Positions 34,948 to 44,846 of a stretch of 64,000 bases of DNA are shown piece by piece (positions within the stretch are counted from its first letter, which is position 1; each line of letters begins with the position of its first letter). Under the pieces are notes generated by a model. It was not told the origin of the DNA. It ran no database searches and worked only from the letters and a program-made list of their open reading frames with translations. This DNA is from Heliocybe sulcata. Lineage: Eukaryota > Basidiomycota > Agaricomycetes > Gloeophyllales > Gloeophyllaceae. The stretch spans positions 376,025 through 440,024 of the forward strand of contig ML213526.1 of NCBI GenBank assembly GCA_004369045.1. The letters are read 5' to 3'. The position numbers and the translations under genes are program-made.

Positions 34948-37779
34948 CTACTTACTCGTCATGTTAATGTACCGGCTACAGTTAGTAATGTCCATGTATA
35001 CCTTTGTATAATGAATAGCATGTCGTTGTGTCATATAACTCACACTTTTCCGTATCTTGCCCACACCTGAGTTTCCTATCTCGGCCGCGCTCGTGTTGAC
35101 CACCTGAAGATTTGGATCGTATTGCATGGCGAACGTAGCAGACGACGCTCTACTGCACTTTGTATGGCCAGATGCATGAAACTGATCCACCACGAACCGG
35201 GTTTCGCGGAAGAACTGGGCTTCACGTACCCAGGCGTATGGCGCGAGCTGACAGCCGAAGTCATATACGACGAGTTTCGGCGCCACTGGCCAGTGAGTGT
35301 ACAGTGCAGCGAAGACATCATTCCGCCCTTCACTTGTTGGGATTGTATGGAAACTGAGGCAGATCAAATGGCAACACCAGAGAACCATAATGCCACCTGT
35401 AAGACCGAGTTTCTTGTAGGTCGTATAGTACTTGCCGCATTCAGACTCGTCCTTCTCCAATTTATCTTCAGTCAGCCTGTCTCCTACTAGATTGGGGTAA
35501 TGAGGCCTCAAACGGATGGGAGGCGTTCCGTAGCATACGCCTGTGTCACGCCAATGACCGTGCGGCAAGTTGTAGTCTATTTGAGCAGGTTCATGCTGCG
35601 ATAACGAGTTGAAGACCTGCAGGCTGCGTGCAGCAAGCCACCATGCTACTGCCTTCAATCTTGGGATGTATGTCGACCCCTCAGCATCATGTAAGGAATG
35701 CAAGACATTCCCAATTGCAGGTATCCATAGCTGGAGGTGCGGCAGTATGTTAGGAGATGTTGCAAAGCGGCTAAGTAGACTAATTGCAGGATATGGGACG
35801 AGTAGCAGGACGATGTCATCGGCAGCAATCTGCATCGACAATATATGTGAGATAGAGCGACTGCGCAACCACGCTCGCAGCCATCAGTTACTCACCTGCC
35901 GGATCAGCTCCCTCAGACAAGCTCTTACTGTAGTAGATGTACAACCGAGGTATGCATCAGCTAATGAAGCAAGTGCGGGCAGATTGCGCCGCATCTCGAG
36001 CGATACTGAGCAGTTGATAGGGGGTAGTTTCACATTGGTCATCAGCCGCAACTCAGTACGCAAGTCCTTCCATTCAACAGCGGCCTTCGATCGACCTGAC
36101 GATGCACAGACAGCTATATTTCTGGGACTGCTGTCATAGACCAATGTCGGGGGCTGTAAGCCTTGCACGAACTTCGCTGATGAGTACCCGATGCTAACAC
36201 CGTCAGCGATGACGATGTCAGGGTGCTTGCCGCATATTGTACACTCCATACCCGAATCGAGTGGCTGGAGAGCAGTGAATGCGAACCAAGCACCTGTGAA
36301 CATCTTGATAGTACAGAAGGGAGCTGGAGACCGGGATGCAATGTATAACCGTCGGGTTGCAGTGACAAATGAAGCGAAAGGTGTTGACGAAGTTGTAAAG
36401 ACATTTGTATACTGATTTAAGAGCTCATGGGTGAATCTGAAACTGTTGTTCCAGTTGAAGACACCGACGTCGCAGCAATCAGGCCCATACTGACGGAAAC
36501 GATGACGGCAGGATGAGCAGTCCGCAACCTCGATAGCACAGAGATGGGCTGTTCAGAGACCAAAGACCGTAAAAGACCGGGTGGAAACATTTACGCGTTC
36601 GCGCCCAGGAAATCCCTCACCGCAGCAGCACCGAGAGCCTATATCGAGGCGGATTTCATCAGGCAGAGAGTCCTGCAGCTCTGTGGCATAGTCAACCGTA
36701 TCGCGCGGCAGCCGACACGATAGCGGGACGGGGACTGCGCAGTGAGAGATAGGCTGCCGAGGCTCAGCGGTATCTCGAGCAGCAGAGTCAAGGCATAGCT
36801 CCTCGAACTCGTTATCAACATACATTAGTAACCCTTGGTCGTCAATGATCTCAGCATCTCTTGCATACTCCACAGCAAAATCCTTGTGGTGGCATGTGCG
36901 CGTTGAGGAACACGATCGGCAGCGCCACTGGCCGTTCCGCAGCAGGCTGACCGTTGTACGCTTGCCCCCGAAGCTCTCAGCCTGAGATGAGCCTCGCACA
37001 CTGAAGATAAAGTGCTCTTGCTGATCAGTCTCAGCCAGTAGGAAGGCACGGGGATACAACTCAGAAGAGAGCGGTTCCATGGTGACGATCTTGGCTATTA
37101 CTGTCATCAACAGTCTAATATGGATACAGGGAGACGCCGCGGGGCAGTCGCAGGTGAAGGATGAATTGGTGTCACTAATGGGGAGGTATCGAACGTGGAC
37201 AAAGCGCGACGGCTACAGGCATCCATGATCAGTGTTGCTATCAGACTGCAAGGACAAACTTACTTTCAACGACAACAACTGCTGATTCCAATCCTGTACC
37301 ACAAAGGTCGTGGAATCCAACCTAAGTATTCCCGCATCCGCGCAGCAACAGTCCCAGTATTCCGCAAGCTCGCTACCTACTACGTCACTCTTCATCAGTT
37401 GCCCCGCGGTCGCATCCACCAAGACCTCTCCATGGGCGTCCTGAGTGAGCGGCCGCTCCCAACATCTCGAACGGCCTACTCGGACAGGCACAGGGAGCGG
37501 AGCGAGAGACTGTCCGGTGCTGGTAGGCCCTGCAGAACTTCCTCTTCCTCTTCCGGTTCCAGCGCCTGAGCCCCGTGCACGAGATAAGTCAAATAAGGGA
37601 CGAGCAACTTGCGTAGACGAGGGCGACATAGCTTGAGGAAGCTGAAACAGTACATGCGGTGACGACAATGCATGCCTGGAGGTCGACGCAGAACTAGCTG
37701 AACCAGCACTAACGGCAAGATCGTCGACGACGTCGGGCAACTGGAACAAGGAGTGAGGAGGTGACCGAGAGCGAGGCAT
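34948..37779 (-). pseudogene. KDZ transposase with SWIM-like finger, one in-frame stop
   Basis: Exons 37779-37264, 37212-35896 and 35829-34948 join in frame to about 904 codons. After a low-complexity N-terminus comes a SWIM-like CxC..CxH motif (FTCDCPAASPCIH, near 37150). It is followed by a Cys-rich block with SSCRHRFRQYGPDC and NWNNSFRFTHELLN, the ECTICGKHPDIVIADGV segment, and the KDZ catalytic region: LVVYDFGCQ near 35260, VDQFHASGHTKCSRA near 35180, and the NTSAAEIGNSGVGKIRKS block. This order is that of basidiomycete Kyakuja-Dileera-Zisupton transposases. One TGA (36555-36553) interrupts an otherwise continuous, alignable exon between TVFGL and TAHLCAIEV. A CGA-to-TGA change would explain it. 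The gene is therefore probably inactive, unless this is a sequencing error. Confidence 0.82.
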
Positions 37780-37946
37780 GACCAGCTATTATATGGGGGA
37801 CGAAGGCGAGAATAGAACGCGTGTCTTTGGCAGAGATGCAGAACGTCGCCAGACGTGAGGAAAGCACGCGGCAAAGAGCAGCCAGAACGTCCCAAGTCCG
37901 GTTCTGCTAGAGAGTACGGTACTTGCCGGACAAATCGCAGCCAAAA

Positions 37947-37965: not shown

Positions 37966-37997
37966 TAAATTTGTGTGCGGTAAACCTCTACTTTTAC

Positions 37998-38010
37998 TGT
38001 CGGAAAAATC
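37998..38010 (+). repeat. Left terminal inverted repeat of the Plavaka element
   Basis: TGTCGGAAAAATC, identical as reverse complement to 44739-44751. Followed inward by a 100-base block with several TCAGGCCTGATCAGG-like and GTCTGACAAGGG motifs. Confidence 0.85.
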
Positions 38011-41000
38011 CAAAAACCCATGTCAGGCCTGAGGAAGCCTGACGACCCCATCAGGCCTGATCAGGCTCGGTTTCTCTCCTGATCAGGCGGTTATCAGGTG
38101 TCGCCAGGTCTGACAAGGGTATACCTCTTACAAAGCTACATATGCATTAGTTACGGGTAGCTTGCAGCCATATAATGTTACTCTACAGCTCGTAAGAACA
38201 TGTCAGGGTCTGTAGTGTCTACGAGGCAATGTATGCTCTTCTTTCCCTGGCCAAAAATGGGAGAAAGTAAAGCTCCTCTAGCAATATAATCCATCATGAC
38301 GAACGTTGTTTCTCGCAACTCCTCGTAGATACGACATCCATCCCAAAGGGTATTCGGCTTCCACGCACTTCGCGTAAACATGCGGACAACTGCTATATCG
38401 ACACATTTACCCGAGGTGACACGGCAGCGCAAGAGTGCGCACAACCGACCGAAAGCAAGTTCCGGAGAGTCCATATTGATAAGCACGGAATCATAGCGAG
38501 ATCGGTTGTGGAACAGCGGATTGCATCGGACAATATCGCGTGCTGCTGTCCAGTCTTCTCTGGACTGATAATTAAGGTACGCGCACTTAAATGATCGGAC
38601 CTGGATACTTCAGCTTCACAGATGCCATGAACGTGCAGGTAAATGTTTCTCACCTGGATCGGGGCCTCGCATGGCAAAGGTTCATCTGGAAGGGCACTTG
38701 CGAGGAAGGTCCTCAATCGTGAATCAAATGAGCGGAACTGGTCATGATCGGATGCCCGCTCTTCCCAAAGACGTGAATTCGTCCATCCACCTGCTGGCGC
38801 GCCGAAAGACCAATGACAGAGATTGCCGTTAGGACTGCCTTCGTCCACCATGCCTTCACCGTTGGCGGGAGCATCGTCCTCAAGCTCATCATCATCCTCA
38901 GCCATTCTTCGGGATTGTACTTCATCAGCCTTGTCAACTGCCATTCGTATCCTGGCAATGGCTTCCTGTGTTTCGTCAATGGCGGACATCTAGTGCGCAT
39001 ATTAGTACAAGCATTAGCATAGCCAGGATACGCGGACCTGATGTTCAGCTTCTTTGCCATTGGTCTGTGCATAAGCCTCCGCTGCCTCTTGTTGAAAGCC
39101 TTCGCCCGGGCGTGTGGAGTAGTTGTCGGTTGTTCCCTTCTGCCGTATGTCAGTGGGAGCATGGCTAGTTGCGTGTTGCTTCGGAAAGTTGAAGTTCTTC
39201 CCGTGTTGCAGTGTGACTCGCTAGAACCAAATGCTCATAAGCTATATGGAGTTGGCTGTCATTCAACCGGCGCACCTCGCAGCTCCTTTCATAGTCAGAA
39301 ACATATTCCTTCAACTTCTTCAAGAACTTCTTCAAGCGGCTCTCAGGCATGCATCGCATCCCCACCATGAGCCGGTACTTTATGTAACTCCGGATGCACC
39401 AGATGAGCGGTGCATTGGCAGGGAAGAGCTGGACAATGCACGGGAGAATACACTAGGAGTAGTGAGATCATCAATAAATTTTGCCTCATGTTTCAAACCA
39501 GTAGCTAGTCGAAGCCTGAGGATTATACCTTCAAAATGTCAAGGAAGCTATTACCATCGGTGTACTGTTCAGTGGTGACATCATCAAAATGCTTCAGATC
39601 TGGCCATCGAGGGAACTCCGACATGCTGGGGGACAGACCAGACATTCAGATATCCAAATCCATGGCAATCACAGAGTGGACGTACTGAGCTGTTAAGCGA
39701 CCCTTTCTGCCCATCTCCTCGAGGACCTGGAGGAGCAAGTCCCATAGGTGGTGTTGCCACTTACCAAGGTCATCCGAATGTAATGTATCATAGGATATTG
39801 CTTTGTATGGCTCCCCGAAGCGAAACCACCAGAGAAAATGCTGTGAACCATCACGATTCAGTTGTGTGGTGGATAGAATACCTAGTGCCGCCCGACTTAC
39901 ATTGATGTCGTGAAGTCCATGACCCATCAAGATCTTCTCTTTTGCGTGGTTTGAGGATGCTGCTCGAGCCTTGTGGATTACATTGGTCATCGAAGCGGAG
40001 GTACGAGGCTCAAATGAACCAGAAAGTCGGTGCAAATGAGCCTTGTCGACGAGACATTTGGGACAAGGATAGTTGGCAAGCGTGGCTCGGCAGGCACAAA
40101 AGTTTGCCGCCTCCTCACCATCAAGAGATAAAATCAGCATGTCCGGGTACAGCGTCCGAATTTGCGAGTCACCACACTTCAGGGTTTCCCCAAGCCACGA
40201 TCGGCGTCGGAGAGACTTGAATACATGAGCTAAGACTTTCTGATAGACCGTCCTTCGGAATTGTTGGAACTCGACTGTCTCCCGGTGGTTCCGGCCAGTC
40301 GGATCTTCTGGGTCTTTTATCTAGTATTTTGATTAAATTTCTTATTGCATTACATATGCATGATAGATCTGCTTACGATTGGCATATATCCAACTAGGAC
40401 ACCGCCGCCATTGCCTGACGCATTCCGGATTTGCCTAGGCAGCCATGCTGCTCGTAGTATCATCGGGAACTTCTTCACTCTCCGCGTCACAAGACCCTTA
40501 TCAAGCCAGAAATGCAGCGGCAGGTAGCAGTGCGGGTATGGACAGGCGGTCGGAGGCAATTCGTCCTGAATAGCATGGATATAAATATATTCGTCAGAGG
40601 AGAGGGCGGCCCACCTACATCGATACTCCACCATGTATCTGCGGTCCAGGGCTCATCAATGAGCTGTTCAGTAACTCCGGTTCCGCTGTTGCAGTAGTAT
40701 TTACGCATGGAGTGCCAGACACTGACAGAAGCTAGCGATGGATCTGTAACCAAGCTCGTGATCCATTCCCAGGGGTCGCGATACTCATATTCAAATGAAT
40801 ATTTCATGCCCTTGTATTCTGTTGACACTGTGCCGCACTCAAACTGACATGATTATCGATAAGTCTAATTGATGTCTATCAGGAAATGTGTCATCGTACC
40901 TGAACGACGTATTTCCTGGCAGCACTCAAGGACTGTTTCAGGTCCTCGTAGTTCTTCATAGTTAATTTGCTTGATCCCGACGATGTGATCCATTGTGAAT

Positions 41001-41375
41001 TCACCCCATTCAATAACCTATTGACTCCCCGCTTCGACAGTTGCTCCGTAACTGTCACAGTTTTGCGCCACATGTCACCATGTCACAGTCACAAGTCACA
41101 TGCACGTGACATTCACATGGCATCACATGATGTGGCACAGTGACTGTGTCTGATCACATCAATGACATCTTTAGGGTTTAGCCTAAAAACTTCTACAAGC
41201 TTCTATCAGAGTTCCATCAGTGATGTGCTTCTATCTTTGATATATCACCGTTGCATGCTTCTATTTCATATAGAAGCACCATTTGATATATTACCTTTGC
41301 ATCATATTGCACCATCATCATGTCATATCGCATCATCTCCACCTCATCTCCTGATTAGTGATGATCACATGGGAT

Positions 41376-41445
41376 NNNNNNNNNNNNNNNNNNNNNNNNN
41401 NNNNNNNNNNNNNNNNNNNNNNNNNNNNNNNNNNNNNNNNNNNNN
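41376..41445. other. Assembly gap (70 Ns)
   Basis: A run of 70 N inside the solo LTR. The true length of the missing sequence is unknown, so the LTR could be longer than 723 bases. Confidence 0.99.
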
Positions 41446-41543
41446 TGGACCATTTGATATTATAGATAGTTAGTCAGCTATGACTCATTATTACTCATCA
41501 TTGCTCAGCCATGTCATTTCCATTTAGTCATCATTCTATTGTG

Positions 41544-41550
41544 TATATAA
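41544..41550 (+). promoter_or_regulatory. TATA box of the solo LTR
   Basis: TATATAA in GTGTATATAAGAC, roughly 230 bases before the end of the LTR and followed by C/T-rich leader-like sequence. It could still drive transcription to the right, antisense to the Plavaka transposase and towards the accessory gene. Confidence 0.5.
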
Positions 41551-42661
41551 GACTTGTAGATATTTCCTTGAGACCCCAGACTTAGCCTCCTTGTCGATAC
41601 CTAGTAGCCTAACAGCACTACATCTCTACATCTGCAATCTATAACTCTGATCTATCCTCACCCTCTGTGTCCCTTGTCTATCTCAAGACCCTCCTCACCT
41701 TTGCTTATCTGGTTAAGAATCAGTAAGCCTGTTTGTTATTGTTTGGGTCTGGTGGCACAGCTAGTCACTGTGACAGTAACTGCAAGTTCAGCAACCTCGA
41801 AGTCGGTGCGAGTACGGAATGGAGCCCAAGGATTTCCATCAGATGCTGTCGAGAAATCTGCAGATGTACTAGGAGCAGTATGCGAGTTACCGGACAGTGG
41901 AACAATGGACGGCAACTCGCCAAAATTGCGAGCATGTGGATGTGGTATGGTCAGGATATATTCCAAGGGTAAAATGGGACTGTAAGGGATCAGACTGTGC
42001 GAGTCAGGCTGTGTCACAATGTCGCCAGCATCGCCGTAAACCGAGTGGCCAACTGCGGGTTCGTCTACACTTCCCTGCTGACACTAAACATCAGTATTAC
42101 TACTGTCTCAAGATTAACCACATTGGCTGCATACACACCTCGAACTGTATAGACCCCTGTGCCGCATCATGGCCTGCACCGTCTCTGGGGTTGGTCCGCT
42201 GATGCTTCGCATTCCGATCACTCTCTAATTTCTCCTTGGCACGTCGCTTCCTCTCATGGGCAATTGAATGATCTCTTTGGCAGGCTTTGAGATGCAGGTC
42301 AAAGCGATGTGGGTCGCGAGTCTGTTGGCAGTACTTGCAGAAAGGCCAGGCAGCATCGTCCTTCTGAATAATCCTACAAGCACCTCTACGGGGCCGCTTA
42401 GCCATCGCAGACTGAGATAGAAGAGTTTTGAGGCTATAGTGACTGCTCCAGGACAGACAGTGGCACGCACATATGCAGTGACGCAGTCACGGGATCGGGA
42501 TGTTGACGCATCGACGCGCGTCCACTTCGAGAAGTCTCGAGTCATTGTAACGCTCAGTCTTTCACCGGTACGACAACCCCCGCTTCTGACCCACTTGAGC
42601 TCCTGCATCACACGAGGTTCACTGGCTCACTGCTAAATCTCTTTCACATCAACGCGTACCA

Positions 42662-44179
42662 ATGCCTAACCGCGACCACAGGGCTATGTCTCGGGGAACT
42701 CGCCGACCCCGCGTAAATTCCATCTCGTCATCCTCAGATGACGACGACACTGTTCTGGACGAGAAAACCAGCCCATGCAAATTGTTGGAGGTGAGTTGCA
42801 TTGACTCCGAGATACTTCCCAAATAATGGAAGCACTTACTTCTGAGAACAGCTTGCACGGAAATTACAAGAGAAGCGCACTACGGCGGAGGAAGAAGCTC
42901 GAAGTCTTCGCCGTGAGCTTGCCGATGTAACCAACAAGGCAGTTGCCGGTCATCGCACAGGTAGCCGGAGGAAGAGAGCACGCGTCGCATCTAGTTCAGG
43001 TCCAGAGTCGGAGCCAGATAGTGATTCGAGTAATGTATCTGATGACGAAAATGATGTCAAGCAGGCTGGGCGCTACTTTACGATGATGCACGGCCTCTGG
43101 CTTCGAGAGAAGCAGCACACATTCAAGCTAGATGTTGACAAGAGTGTTGAGGAGAAGTGCCGGTTTGACAAGGAGGACAACAAATCCCGAGCGCAGCTGC
43201 TTGAGATTCGCATGCTGCTACCACCTAAGCTCCACTCATCTCTCAAAGACACCTGGTTAAGAACTAAGGTGCGGGCCGCACTCCATATTGCTGCTATTGA
43301 TGCTCACCATATGTTAGTTCATGCAAGCGATGGGGGAACAGCACTCCAATACTTCGACCCGCCTCCGCAGACATATTGTTGATGTCTTTGATGCAGGGCT
43401 ACCAGGTGTGGTTGTCAAGGCCGTCGACCTTGTATCGTCAGGTGGAAGGCAGGAGAAGTTCCGTCATCTGATAGGCTGGGTTGTCGGCAGCGAGGGTCAG
43501 GGCTCGTATGCCAACCTGGATGTTGCTGTTCTGCACAAGGATTACAAGGGAAAGTTTGACACCAACACGGTCTTCCTCAACCCGCTTCTCATGCATGTAC
43601 GTCCATTCACACGACATGGCTATGAATGGCGGGGTGTATACTTAGATTTTCATTGCTAGGTGTTTGCAGCAATAATACGTGGCCCAACTGCAGCTTTAGC
43701 GATGGCCCAACCTGCAAAAGCAGTTGCACCGCCGACTGACACCATGGAGCTACGCCATGGCATCAAGAACATCACGCCAGGTGCCATTGCAGCTAGCGCG
43801 GTATTAGTGAATATTCATCTTTAGGTCTCTCGCTAGCTACGTTCGCTGATTTCTATCTCTGTAGACTCACTGGGCACTATCCGCAGATGATCAACTACAG
43901 GCATCCGGAGCAGTAACTGGAATCGACTATGCCGCAGCCTTTGAACAGTACCTGCAGTATTTGATGAAGGGGCTGTGGGACAGGAAGCCTAGTGTCGAGA
44001 AGATAATACGGGAATGGGATGCCGTTCTATTCCCACATACTGGGAGCAGTCTGGTGCGTTCACAGGGTGATCAGACAGGTGACGAGTTTCGCAGCGCAAT
44101 GGAGCAATTGAGCGCTGAGGAAGCGATACCGAGCGACGATGAGCACGCCGAAGAAGACTGCGAGGCTGACAATGCTTGA
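42662..44179 (+). CDS. Plavaka-element accessory protein, conserved but uncharacterised, 428 aa
   Basis: Five exons: 42662-42790, 42852-43268, 43318-43596, 43660-43806 and 43865-44179. All are multiples of three with GT..AG borders. A Ser/Asp-rich N-terminus and a charged helix (LARKLQEKRTTAEEEARSL) precede a basic KRARV patch that may be a nuclear signal. The conserved core contains FTMMHGLWLREKQHTFKLD, EQHSNTSTRLRRHI, TVFLNPLLMH, AAIIRGPTAALAM, TPGAIAASAVL, THWALSADDQL, GIDYAAAFEQYLQYLMKGL and EWDAVLFP, with an acidic C-terminus. I remember proteins with this motif order as an abundant family of hypothetical proteins in agaricomycetes, without an assigned function. It lies inside the Plavaka terminal repeats, is divergent from the transposase across about 250 bases, and appears intact. 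Confidence 0.75.
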
Positions 44180-44327
44180 AATTAATACTGTATTATCTTG
44201 ACCTGTACTGCTTCGGCTTTAACAGAATTGACATGTCTTGCTCACTCAGAATAGCCTTGTGAGGGTAACGATTTTGACTACATATAATGCATTAAATTAT
44301 ATAAAATGGAATGGATATATGTCGTAG

Positions 44328-44384
44328 TGGTTATCGCACGCGGGCCTTTAGTACGAGTTCTCTAGTGCTGCCGGTTCGAATCCT
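44328..44384 (+). other. tRNA-like A-box/B-box sequence inside the Plavaka element
   Basis: TAGTGGTTATC resembles a pol III A box, and 40-45 bases later GGTTCGAATCC is a perfect B box. A full cloverleaf does not fold: the T-stem and acceptor stem do not pair well. It may be a decayed tRNA or the head of a tRNA-derived SINE. Confidence 0.25.
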
Positions 44385-44738
44385 TCTAATGTCATAGTGA
44401 GTGCGTCTTCAACAGCTCGGTAGCTTAATAAATCGATAAGTTGTCGTTATTTCATGAACGGAAGTTGGTAGTGTACGGTGACTGAGAAATCATACACCAA
44501 TAAGAAACCATCAATGAATATAATTTTCTGTTATTTACTGCTTCCCCTCCCGAAACGCTGATCAGGCGTCATAAGGGCCTTAAGGCCTACCCAGCGGTGA
44601 TCAGTCTGACAAGGGTACTTCAGGCTGGCCAGGCCTGATCAGCCATGATTCGGGTTTTTCGAAGCTGATATGGGTATCGAGTACCTGATGGCCTTGTCAG
44701 ACCTGATATTGTCTGGTCACCCCTCACACGGGTATTTC

Positions 44739-44751
44739 GATTTTTCCGACA
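44739..44751 (-). repeat. Right terminal inverted repeat of the Plavaka element
   Basis: Reads TGTCGGAAAAATC on the minus strand, identical to 37998-38010. Subterminal motifs GTCTGACAAGG and TGATCAGGC recur between 44565 and 44705. Confidence 0.85.
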
Positions 44752-44789
44752 ACATCGGACGATACCTGCAATCTCAGGCATGCATGGTG

Positions 44790-44846
44790 GTAATTGCTAC
44801 GGCGAACGTCCTGTAGAAGCCGGTTCGAGCCCGCTATAACCACTTT
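44790..44846 (+). other. tRNA-like sequence just outside the Plavaka element
   Basis: A GGTGGTA..TATAACC pair could form most of an acceptor-like stem, and GGTTCGAGCCC is a B box. The whole span is only about 57 bases, too short for a normal tRNA, so it is at best a truncated or derived copy. Confidence 0.2.

Follow-up and report, generated by a model that had tools for sequence, protein, structure and literature searches.

The stretch of Heliocybe sulcata DNA analysed here (the window, 64,000 nucleotides) contains, at positions 37998–44751, a genuine Plavaka-group transposon of the cut-and-paste type with two genes. Between its termini lie a Plavaka transposase (PF18759) and a five-exon gene whose 428-residue product belongs to the Pfam family DUF6698 (PF20414). 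The initial annotation had proposed that the second gene serves a two-gene Plavaka element, and this proposal is supported and extends to DUF6698 and DUF6532 (PF20149) loci genome-wide.

Termini and genes of the window element

The element begins with a perfect 13-bp terminal inverted repeat, TGTCGGAAAAATC (37998–38010, + strand), and ends with the 13-bp partner of this repeat (44739–44751, - strand). The dinucleotide AC, read from the sequence as the target-site duplication, stands outside each repeat at 37996–37997 and 44752–44753, so that the repeats and their flanks are as first described. In a shuffle test, none of 300 base-shuffled flanks matched the quality of the TGT repeat with its 2-bp duplication. 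The subterminal motifs said to be common to both ends are also borne out. The 250-bp ends have 26 8-mers in common, the inverted repeat counted in; interior control pairs average 2.05, and none of 275 equalled the number at the ends. CTGATCAG is present in four copies in the element, two near each end, and in six across the whole window. Motif and 8-mer counts place the left subterminal repeats, CCTGATCAGGC and CAGGTCTGACAAGG, at 38023–38121 and the right subterminal repeats at 44557–44705. Stretches resembling a tRNA B-box within the element and its relatives were set aside, as they gave no ARAGORN or Rfam match.

Two types of termini have been described for Plavaka elements: TGT..ACA with 2-bp duplications for PlavakaA, and CATCA..TGATG with 2–3-bp duplications for PlavakaB (Kojima 2025, PMC12730594). 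The window element, with its PF18759 transposase, TGTCGG..CCGACA ends and 2-bp duplication AC, resembles PlavakaA and, judged from its termini, is of that type.

The transposase is encoded on the - strand. Its main matching exon (39646–40320; E 4.7e-16, 59.3 bits) and an upstream part of the domain (40487–40852; E 4.2e-7, 29.9 bits) both exceed the curated PF18759 cut-off of 26.3 bits. Open frames at 38178–39452 (approximate limits), without a family match, are probable C-terminal exons. The first coding exon, at about 42142–42404, was also placed from open frames, and it contains a CxxC...H...C finger-like motif that was spotted by eye and has no Pfam match. Frame reading places the second coding exon at about 41781–42083 and the continuation of its frame at about 40901–41052. 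Between these two segments lies a solo LTR of 723 bp (41053–41775), with TG..CA ends and the duplication GTAAC at 41048–41052 and 41776–41780, which was recognised from sequence and genome matches. It includes a run of 70 N (41376–41445), and its right-hand 330 bases have seven further matches in the genome, two of them full-length at 99% and one spanning just 55 bases. The LTR sits in the transposase coding frame, and the frame of the upstream exon meets a stop about 12 codons into it. The element is therefore neither complete, contrary to the initial annotation, nor autonomous, and any mobility of this copy would need transposase in trans.

The partner gene is on the + strand and, like the transposase, lies within the termini. 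Its exons are at 42662–42790, 42852–43268, 43318–43596, 43660–43806 and 43865–44179, separated by GT..AG introns. The second exon encodes a coiled-coil-like and basic stretch, identified by eye, and the fifth an acidic tail and the stop codon. The protein has 428 residues when the second donor of intron 4 is used, the length given in the initial annotation, and 426 with the first donor. The motifs QHSNTSTRLR, TPGAIAASAVL and GIDYAAAF are all present. The family was thought to lack a name, but residues 266–378 match Pfam DUF6698 with an E-value of 7.5e-9 and 36 bits (curated cut-off 23.7). The match covers the C-terminal half of the protein and profile positions 100–204 of 206, leaving the first half of the profile unmatched. 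The same Pfam search lists no DUF6532, Myb/SANT, enzyme or chromatin domain, and a search for relatives of solved structure by sequence gave none at E up to 1. HEPN_AbiU2 (E 0.051), CPV_RdRP_N (0.21) and PHROG 9798 (0.054) were rejected as identities, all being below cut-off.

Partner loci across the genome

The pairing of partner genes with Plavaka transposases was surveyed in one genome of 31.6 Mb. For each of the five DUF6698 loci found, a Plavaka transposase is no more than 10 kb away. The other Plavaka lineage is accompanied by DUF6532, of whose 14 loci 7 are within 10 kb and 10 within 25 kb, with three of these 10 at a distance of 12–22 kb. Of the 19 loci of both families, 12 fall within 10 kb, where 1.3% is expected per locus, and 15 within 25 kb; in this genome the homologues thus do not lie mostly far from transposons, the distribution that the initial annotation had set against its proposal. 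As a control, KDZ transposases were found within 10 kb of 1 of the 19 partner loci, which is the window itself, and there the KDZ gene is outside the repeats of the element. The family scan missed the gene in the window and scored the C29 locus below cut-off, so that members distant from Plavaka may also have been missed. A DUF6698 profile of our own gave no match at C8:1178–1187k, C46 or C38, nor at C10, where the negative is uninformative because the contig begins some 2 kb from the transposase.

Divergent orientation, described as part of the arrangement, is present in the window but is not a fixed trait, as two of the five DUF6698 loci are divergent and three are tandem. Among the 10 DUF6532 loci that have a transposase no further than 25 kb away, nine are head-to-head. 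An accessory protein that limits transposition, either as a repressor at the common promoter region or as an inhibitor of the transposase, would be compatible with the common intergenic region of the window and these nine loci, and, from inspection by eye, with the acidic tail and a stretch resembling a coiled coil. This explanation seems quite doubtful, since it fits neither the tandem DUF6698 loci nor the position of the CTGATCAG repeats, which are at the element tips and not in the intergenic region.

Selection was measured on pairs of DUF6532 genes. For C5 and C41, dN/dS is 0.17 over 178 codons, and 0.14 over 156 codons (13 synonymous, 7 non-synonymous) when 22 intron-like codons are removed. 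For C46 and C30 it is 0.18; this pair has a common stop at the same codon, probably an intron. The transposases of C5 and C41 give 0.11. The DUF6532 partner copies are under purifying selection.

The transposases of the window and C29 pair in the own-genome transposase tree with a support of 99, and the deep nodes are weakly supported (38, 51). For this tree the C41 loci were split, two pieces at C8:1182–1186k were joined and the C20:196k fragment was dropped; the window row is a rough frame concatenation that includes a probable intron, which makes its branch length unreliable. The association with a partner gene recurs in deeply diverged transposase clades. Transposons capture host genes, and a captured passenger without element function could account for the four of 14 DUF6532 loci (C46, C32, C12 and C38) that are on contigs without a Plavaka match. 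No transposase remnant was found in the roughly 9.5–9.9 kb examined around C46 and C38; C46 nevertheless has a Plavaka-type end. The repeated association over deeply diverged clades, the 12 loci within 10 kb of Plavaka and a DUF6532 dN/dS near the transposase value had already put the passenger explanation out of favour, and we consider it very improbable.

DUF6532 is probably related to DUF6698, a kinship that rests on the C29 protein, which matches DUF6698 (3.2e-11) and, under the cut-off of 24, DUF6532 (0.0012, 19.2 bits). The accessory proteins of the window and C29 are 24% identical (alignment A1), with intron sites at matching alignment places by eye. A comparison of small-alignment profiles of the two families gave a weak hhalign probability of 31.9, and none of four DUF6532 proteins returned a reciprocal DUF6698 match.

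Ends and repeats at related loci

Ends were checked at 11 two-gene loci, and inverted repeats enclose both genes in seven. Duplications flank the elements of the window (AC), C5 (CA), C30 (TG), C8 (TC) and C6b (TT). The other enclosed loci are C29, with AT and a short repeat, and C13, where the duplication is ambiguous and the ends depart from the TGT..ACA pattern with its 2-bp duplication. Taken alone, the 8-bp repeat of C29 was matched in 19 of 300 shuffles. No inverted repeats were found within flanks of about 3 kb at C17 and C20, and C41 and C6a each have one CATCAGG-type end in the shorter flanks examined there. At C8, the 13-bp pair CACGTTAATCAAG was discarded as the terminus, as its left copy lies outside the CATCAGG pair that emerged when the flanks were lengthened. 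The four mapped DUF6532 elements resemble PlavakaB, with CATCA..TGATG ends and 2–3-bp duplications.

Ends were mapped for three DUF6698 elements, and each element has its own distinct subterminal repeat, which is present at both ends. Interior control pairs did not reach the copy number of the end repeats in any of them (0/275, 0/281 and 0/284). Non-autonomous copies of 658 bp, with ends and motif like those of DUF6698 elements, are found at C6 (TT) and C22 (AG) and are identical at 646 of 658 positions. Their retention of the ends and the motif suggests that the ends suffice in cis.

A predicted role in transposition

By analogy with TnpA, the DUF6698 and DUF6532 proteins may be transposon-encoded cofactors, kept by element-level selection, that assist the transposase at the subterminal repeats; this is our preferred reading, and we give it about an even chance. 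In CACTA elements, both TNPD, the transposase, and TNPA, which binds subterminal repeats, are required (PMC2613891). The DUF6698 cofactor would likewise join the transposase at the element ends and would probably recognise or organise the family-specific subterminal repeats, CCTGATCAGG in the window element. The two ends would in this way be paired and cut, the service that TnpA performs for the TnpD transposase of CACTA elements. As the two genes are divergent in the window, the cofactor may also regulate the promoters of its own element.

Like CACTA/En-Spm elements, Plavaka elements such as that of the window combine a transposase of the wider CMC/CMCT group with a further protein, have inverted repeats of 13 bp and carry subterminal repeats at both ends that are specific to the family, and their non-autonomous copies retain the ends (PMC2613891). 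The window element differs in having TGTCGG ends and a 2-bp AC duplication instead of CACTA and 3 bp, and in that its second protein, for which end binding is predicted, comes from a separate gene and not from splicing. Harbinger/Nuwa elements are also two-protein cut-and-paste transposons, with a Myb/SANT second protein (PMC12730594), whereas the DUF6698 protein of the window has no Myb/SANT match and its transposase is of another family. Several observations count against the cofactor reading: the Pfam search detected no DNA-binding domain in the DUF6698 protein, three of the four DUF6532 elements tested lack an end repeat of raised copy number, and the transposase, with its own finger-like motif, might bind the ends alone. 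The tandem DUF6698 loci, the two-gene loci without a full pair of ends and the four DUF6532 loci on contigs lacking a Plavaka match also weigh against it, as does the derivation of the selection values from DUF6532 pairs.

Alternatively, the accessory protein could be an anti-silencing factor that binds ends or promoters and prevents shutdown of the transposase by chromatin or DNA methylation. VANC of the plant VANDAL elements is a precedent for such a function. TET/JBP genes are carried by some fungal Plavaka families (PMC12730594), and the TNPA protein of Spm acts as a regulator of the element that encodes it as well (PMC2613891). A genome search for Tet_JBP gave three matches, all under the family cut-off, and each is flanked by a Plavaka transposase on one side and a DUF6532 gene on the other. 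In contrast, no TET match lies between the genes at 16 of the 19 Plavaka loci in an exon-by-exon scan that may miss some, and the DUF6698 protein lacks an enzyme or chromatin domain. No TET/JBP gene was found inside the window element, and none of the Tet_JBP matches is on contig C24. As DUF6532 adjoins Plavaka both with and without a TET match, it is no substitute for TET. We regard the anti-silencing explanation as unlikely, if less so than the limiter.

The cofactor reading may be carried further. DUF6698 and DUF6532 would then form one superfamily of transposition cofactors, an ancient basic component of both fungal Plavaka lineages; a third divergent gene, unmatched in Pfam, would fill that role in the C8/C9 clade, and Plavaka elements would be obligate two-component transposons. 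For this extension the balance appears to us equal on either side. If the cofactor reading is right, Plavaka would be a further two-protein transposon type besides CACTA and Harbinger, and its partner protein would be of a new kind. Their position inside mapped transposon ends and beside a transposase, together with purifying selection on DUF6532, gives the two Pfam DUF families a concrete, testable role, and annotators are cautioned not to count DUF6532 and DUF6698 as host genes.

In the Plavaka section of PMC12730594, TET/JBP is the sole second gene named for Plavaka; here, in contrast, DUF6698 or DUF6532 is often the second gene, and this includes the three loci whose TET match is weak. The open papers searched yielded no mention of the link between Plavaka and these families. 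In a Ganoderma study, PF18759 and PF20149 appear next to each other among extra protein domains (PMC8955403).

Structure and gene content of the window element

The Plavaka element of the window occupies positions 37998–44751 (6754 bp). A perfect 13-bp inverted repeat, TGTCGGAAAAATC, is present at both tips with AC directly outside each. Shuffling the flanking bases 300 times never produced an equally good TGT repeat with a 2-bp duplication. The element contains a Plavaka transposase gene on the minus strand (PF18759; two matches of 59.3 and 29.9 bits, cut-off 26.3) and a plus-strand gene modelled as five exons with GT..AG introns. The modelled product of the latter has 428 residues with splicing from the second donor of intron 4, and 426 with splicing from the first. 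These boundaries and this two-gene content agree with the initial annotation, which had placed the second protein in a family of unassigned function; the family does have a Pfam name, as the C-terminal half of the protein matches DUF6698 (PF20414) above cut-off (E 7.5e-9; 36 bits, cut-off 23.7; positions 100–204 of a 206-position profile). Directly to the left of the element, outside its repeats, lies a KDZ-type transposase gene (34948–37785, minus strand) with a PF18758 match at 35011–35397 (28.3 bits) and open frames that reach 37785.

The transposase gene is interrupted by a 723-bp insertion (41053–41775) that starts with TG, ends with CA and has the 5-bp duplication GTAAC on either side. 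Elsewhere in the genome its right 330 bases are matched seven times, twice at 99%, twice at 95–96%, twice at 82–83% and once over 55 bases only. We read the insertion as a solo LTR. Continued from the upstream transposase exon, the frame runs for about 12 codons of the insertion before it stops, and the two flanks form one open frame when the insertion is removed in an empty-site comparison. Because the solo LTR breaks the coding frame, the window copy should not yield an ordinary transposase, and the element, previously described as complete with the LTR overlooked, cannot be regarded as such.

Association of DUF6698 and DUF6532 genes with Plavaka

Associations were searched for in the window's own 31.6-Mb assembly, a single genome, and all counts are lower bounds. 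The assembly contains 19 Plavaka loci when exons are joined. A DUF6698 family scan gave four places, on contigs C13, C17, C20 and C29; it is not exhaustive, having missed the window's own gene, which was recovered by protein search. The C29 gene, below cut-off in the scan, reached 43.8 bits, above cut-off, after manual splicing. All five DUF6698 loci are situated less than 10 kb from a Plavaka transposase (1.8, 1.8, 2.0, 3.2 and 9.5 kb). Since the C29 gene also matched DUF6532 (PF20149) weakly (E 0.0012, below the DUF6532 cut-off), this probably related family was searched as well. It has 14 loci, 7 within 10 kb and 10 within 25 kb of Plavaka; the remaining four (C46, C32, C12 and C38) are on contigs with no Plavaka match.

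For the two families together, 12 of 19 loci fall within 10 kb of Plavaka, against 1.3% expected for each, so that the pattern which would have refuted the initial annotation's claim, homologues lying mostly away from transposons, was not found in this one genome. The binomial tail of 9e-19 disregards transposon clustering, and the count for KDZ transposases, a separate fungal transposase group with 11 loci, is the better control: only one of the 19 partner loci has one within 10 kb, namely that of the window, where the KDZ gene is outside the element's repeats.

A tree of 18 of the 19 Plavaka transposases unites the nine DUF6532-paired transposases with C41:72k, at a contig end (support 79). 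The window groups with C29 (support 99), and C13, C17 and C20 with C10 (support 100); the deepest nodes are poorly supported (38 and 51). Judged by eye, intron positions in the window and C29 partner genes coincide in the alignment. Ten DUF6532 genes lie up to 25 kb from a transposase; nine are divergent from it, and the tenth, C6:1292k, points to the C6:1294k transposase. An element end of its own separates it from that transposase, and it is therefore probably a remnant of another element. For DUF6698 the arrangement is divergent at two loci (the window and C20) and tandem at three (C13, C17 and C29). A further transposase clade, C8:1182k/C9:797k (support 100), has no DUF6698 or DUF6532 match. 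Upstream of its C8 member is a divergent, lysine/alanine-rich multi-exon gene (C8:1178000–1181300, minus strand; stretch L082) with no Pfam match, possibly a third partner family. At three places (C37:31.5–55k, C27:1.1–18.8k and C5:587.6–600.8k) a DUF6532 gene 12–22 kb from a Plavaka transposase is separated from it by a sub-cut-off Tet_JBP match, which suggests TET-carrying Plavaka elements that also keep a DUF6532 partner.

Element ends and non-autonomous copies

Ends were sought at 11 two-gene loci. All four DUF6532 loci with long flanks have CATCAGG-type inverted repeats and a 2-bp duplication around both genes: C5 339403–348325 (CA), C30 78377–84980 (TG), C8 1288297–1294638 (TC) and C6b 1232343–1240413 (TT), each equalled in 0 of 300 shuffles. 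The gene to the left of the C8 element (C8:1287259–1288290; stretch L067) reads by eye like an MBD4-type DNA glycosylase. In the shorter stretches of C41 and C6a, one CATCAGG-type end each was found. The C29 DUF6698 element (202319–215086) has the repeat TGTCGGAA and the duplication AT; this 8-bp repeat is weak alone, being reached by 19 of 300 shuffles, and its letters are the first eight of the window repeat. In C13 the repeats are alike at 25 of 27 bases (382469/390302), with an ambiguous duplication that is TA if the end is CTGTGG. No inverted repeats were obtained from the end search at C17 and C20. According to Kojima 2025, CATCAGG-type termini characterize PlavakaB, and TGT..ACA with 2 bp PlavakaA (PMC12730594, section 3.2.2); by their terminal sequences, the window and C29 elements fit PlavakaA.

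The shared subterminal motifs first noticed by the initial annotation are present: CTGATCAG occurs four times in the window element, at element positions 60, 82, 6561 and 6638, twice near each end and nowhere between. Ends were mapped for two further DUF6698 elements; each has a motif of its own, present at both tips: GATTGCAA for C29 and TACTCGGACA for C13. End-motif copy number was reached by no interior control pair in the window, C29 or C13 (0/275, 0/281 and 0/284), and shared 8-mers by 0, 6 and 2 controls, respectively. Among four DUF6532 elements, a raised-copy-number end repeat was found in C6b only; when shared 8-mers are counted, inverted repeat included, between 4 and 12 of some 280 controls do as well as the ends of the four.

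The left end of the window element matches five other genome places; for the right end no other match was listed, in a search that can miss common words. Two matches are 658-bp copies, C6:87615–88272 (duplication TT) and C22:111210–111867 (AG), identical at 646 of 658 bases (98%) and retaining a motif block similar to that of CTGATCAG. C4 has a copy of this type with about 1 kb inserted, C3 is alike over the first 69 bases only, and at C24:323438 the match is limited to a 121-bp stretch, about 9 kb of sequence there containing nothing else that matches the element. Because the 658-bp copies retain such ends and a similar block, the inverted repeat and subterminal block look like cis signals, and the close likeness of the copies suggests fairly recent mobilization in trans.

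Near the right end, tRNA-like stretches with a B-box-like GGTTCGAATCC were seen by eye inside (44319–44393) and outside (44782–44842) the element, and also in the C29 element and the 658-bp copies; one of these places is 730–855 of stretch L018. Run on the window and on six relatives, ARAGORN called no tRNA gene, and Rfam gave no match in the element.

Constraint and proposed role of the partner gene

Between C5 and C41, dN/dS for DUF6532 is 0.17 (178 codons), or 0.14 (156 codons; 13 synonymous and 7 non-synonymous differences) without an intron-like stretch, and 0.11 (156 codons) for the transposases. C46 and C30 give 0.18 for DUF6532 over 238 codons, part of which is probably intron. These are point estimates, and the partner values concern DUF6532 only, as no close DUF6698 pair was found in the assembly.

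We found no mention of DUF6698 in the open literature searched. A DUF6698 or DUF6532 second gene of Plavaka is unnamed in the accessible parts of that literature, including PMC12730594, PMC8290104, PMC9674265, PMC8955403, PMC2613891 and PMC12810828. In one of these, PF18759 and PF20149 stand next to each other in a list, with no link drawn between them in the part available (PMC8955403). An earlier mention is possible, for example in supplements or in Iyer et al. 2014, which these papers cite for Plavaka.

The repeated occurrence of two genes in one mobile unit and the constraint on DUF6532 partners support the proposal that the partner serves an element function, which is very probably correct in some form. 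That this function is anti-silencing is rather unlikely. There is about an even chance that the partner would be a transposition cofactor on the model of the CACTA pair TNPA and TNPD, the closest well-characterized precedent. In CACTA, TNPA binds subterminal repeats, TNPD is the transposase and both are needed, while TNPA-like proteins and subterminal repeats differ between families (PMC2613891). The DUF6698 elements have a comparable anatomy: their transposase belongs to the same wide group, the second protein changes fast, and the subterminal repeats are specific to each family.
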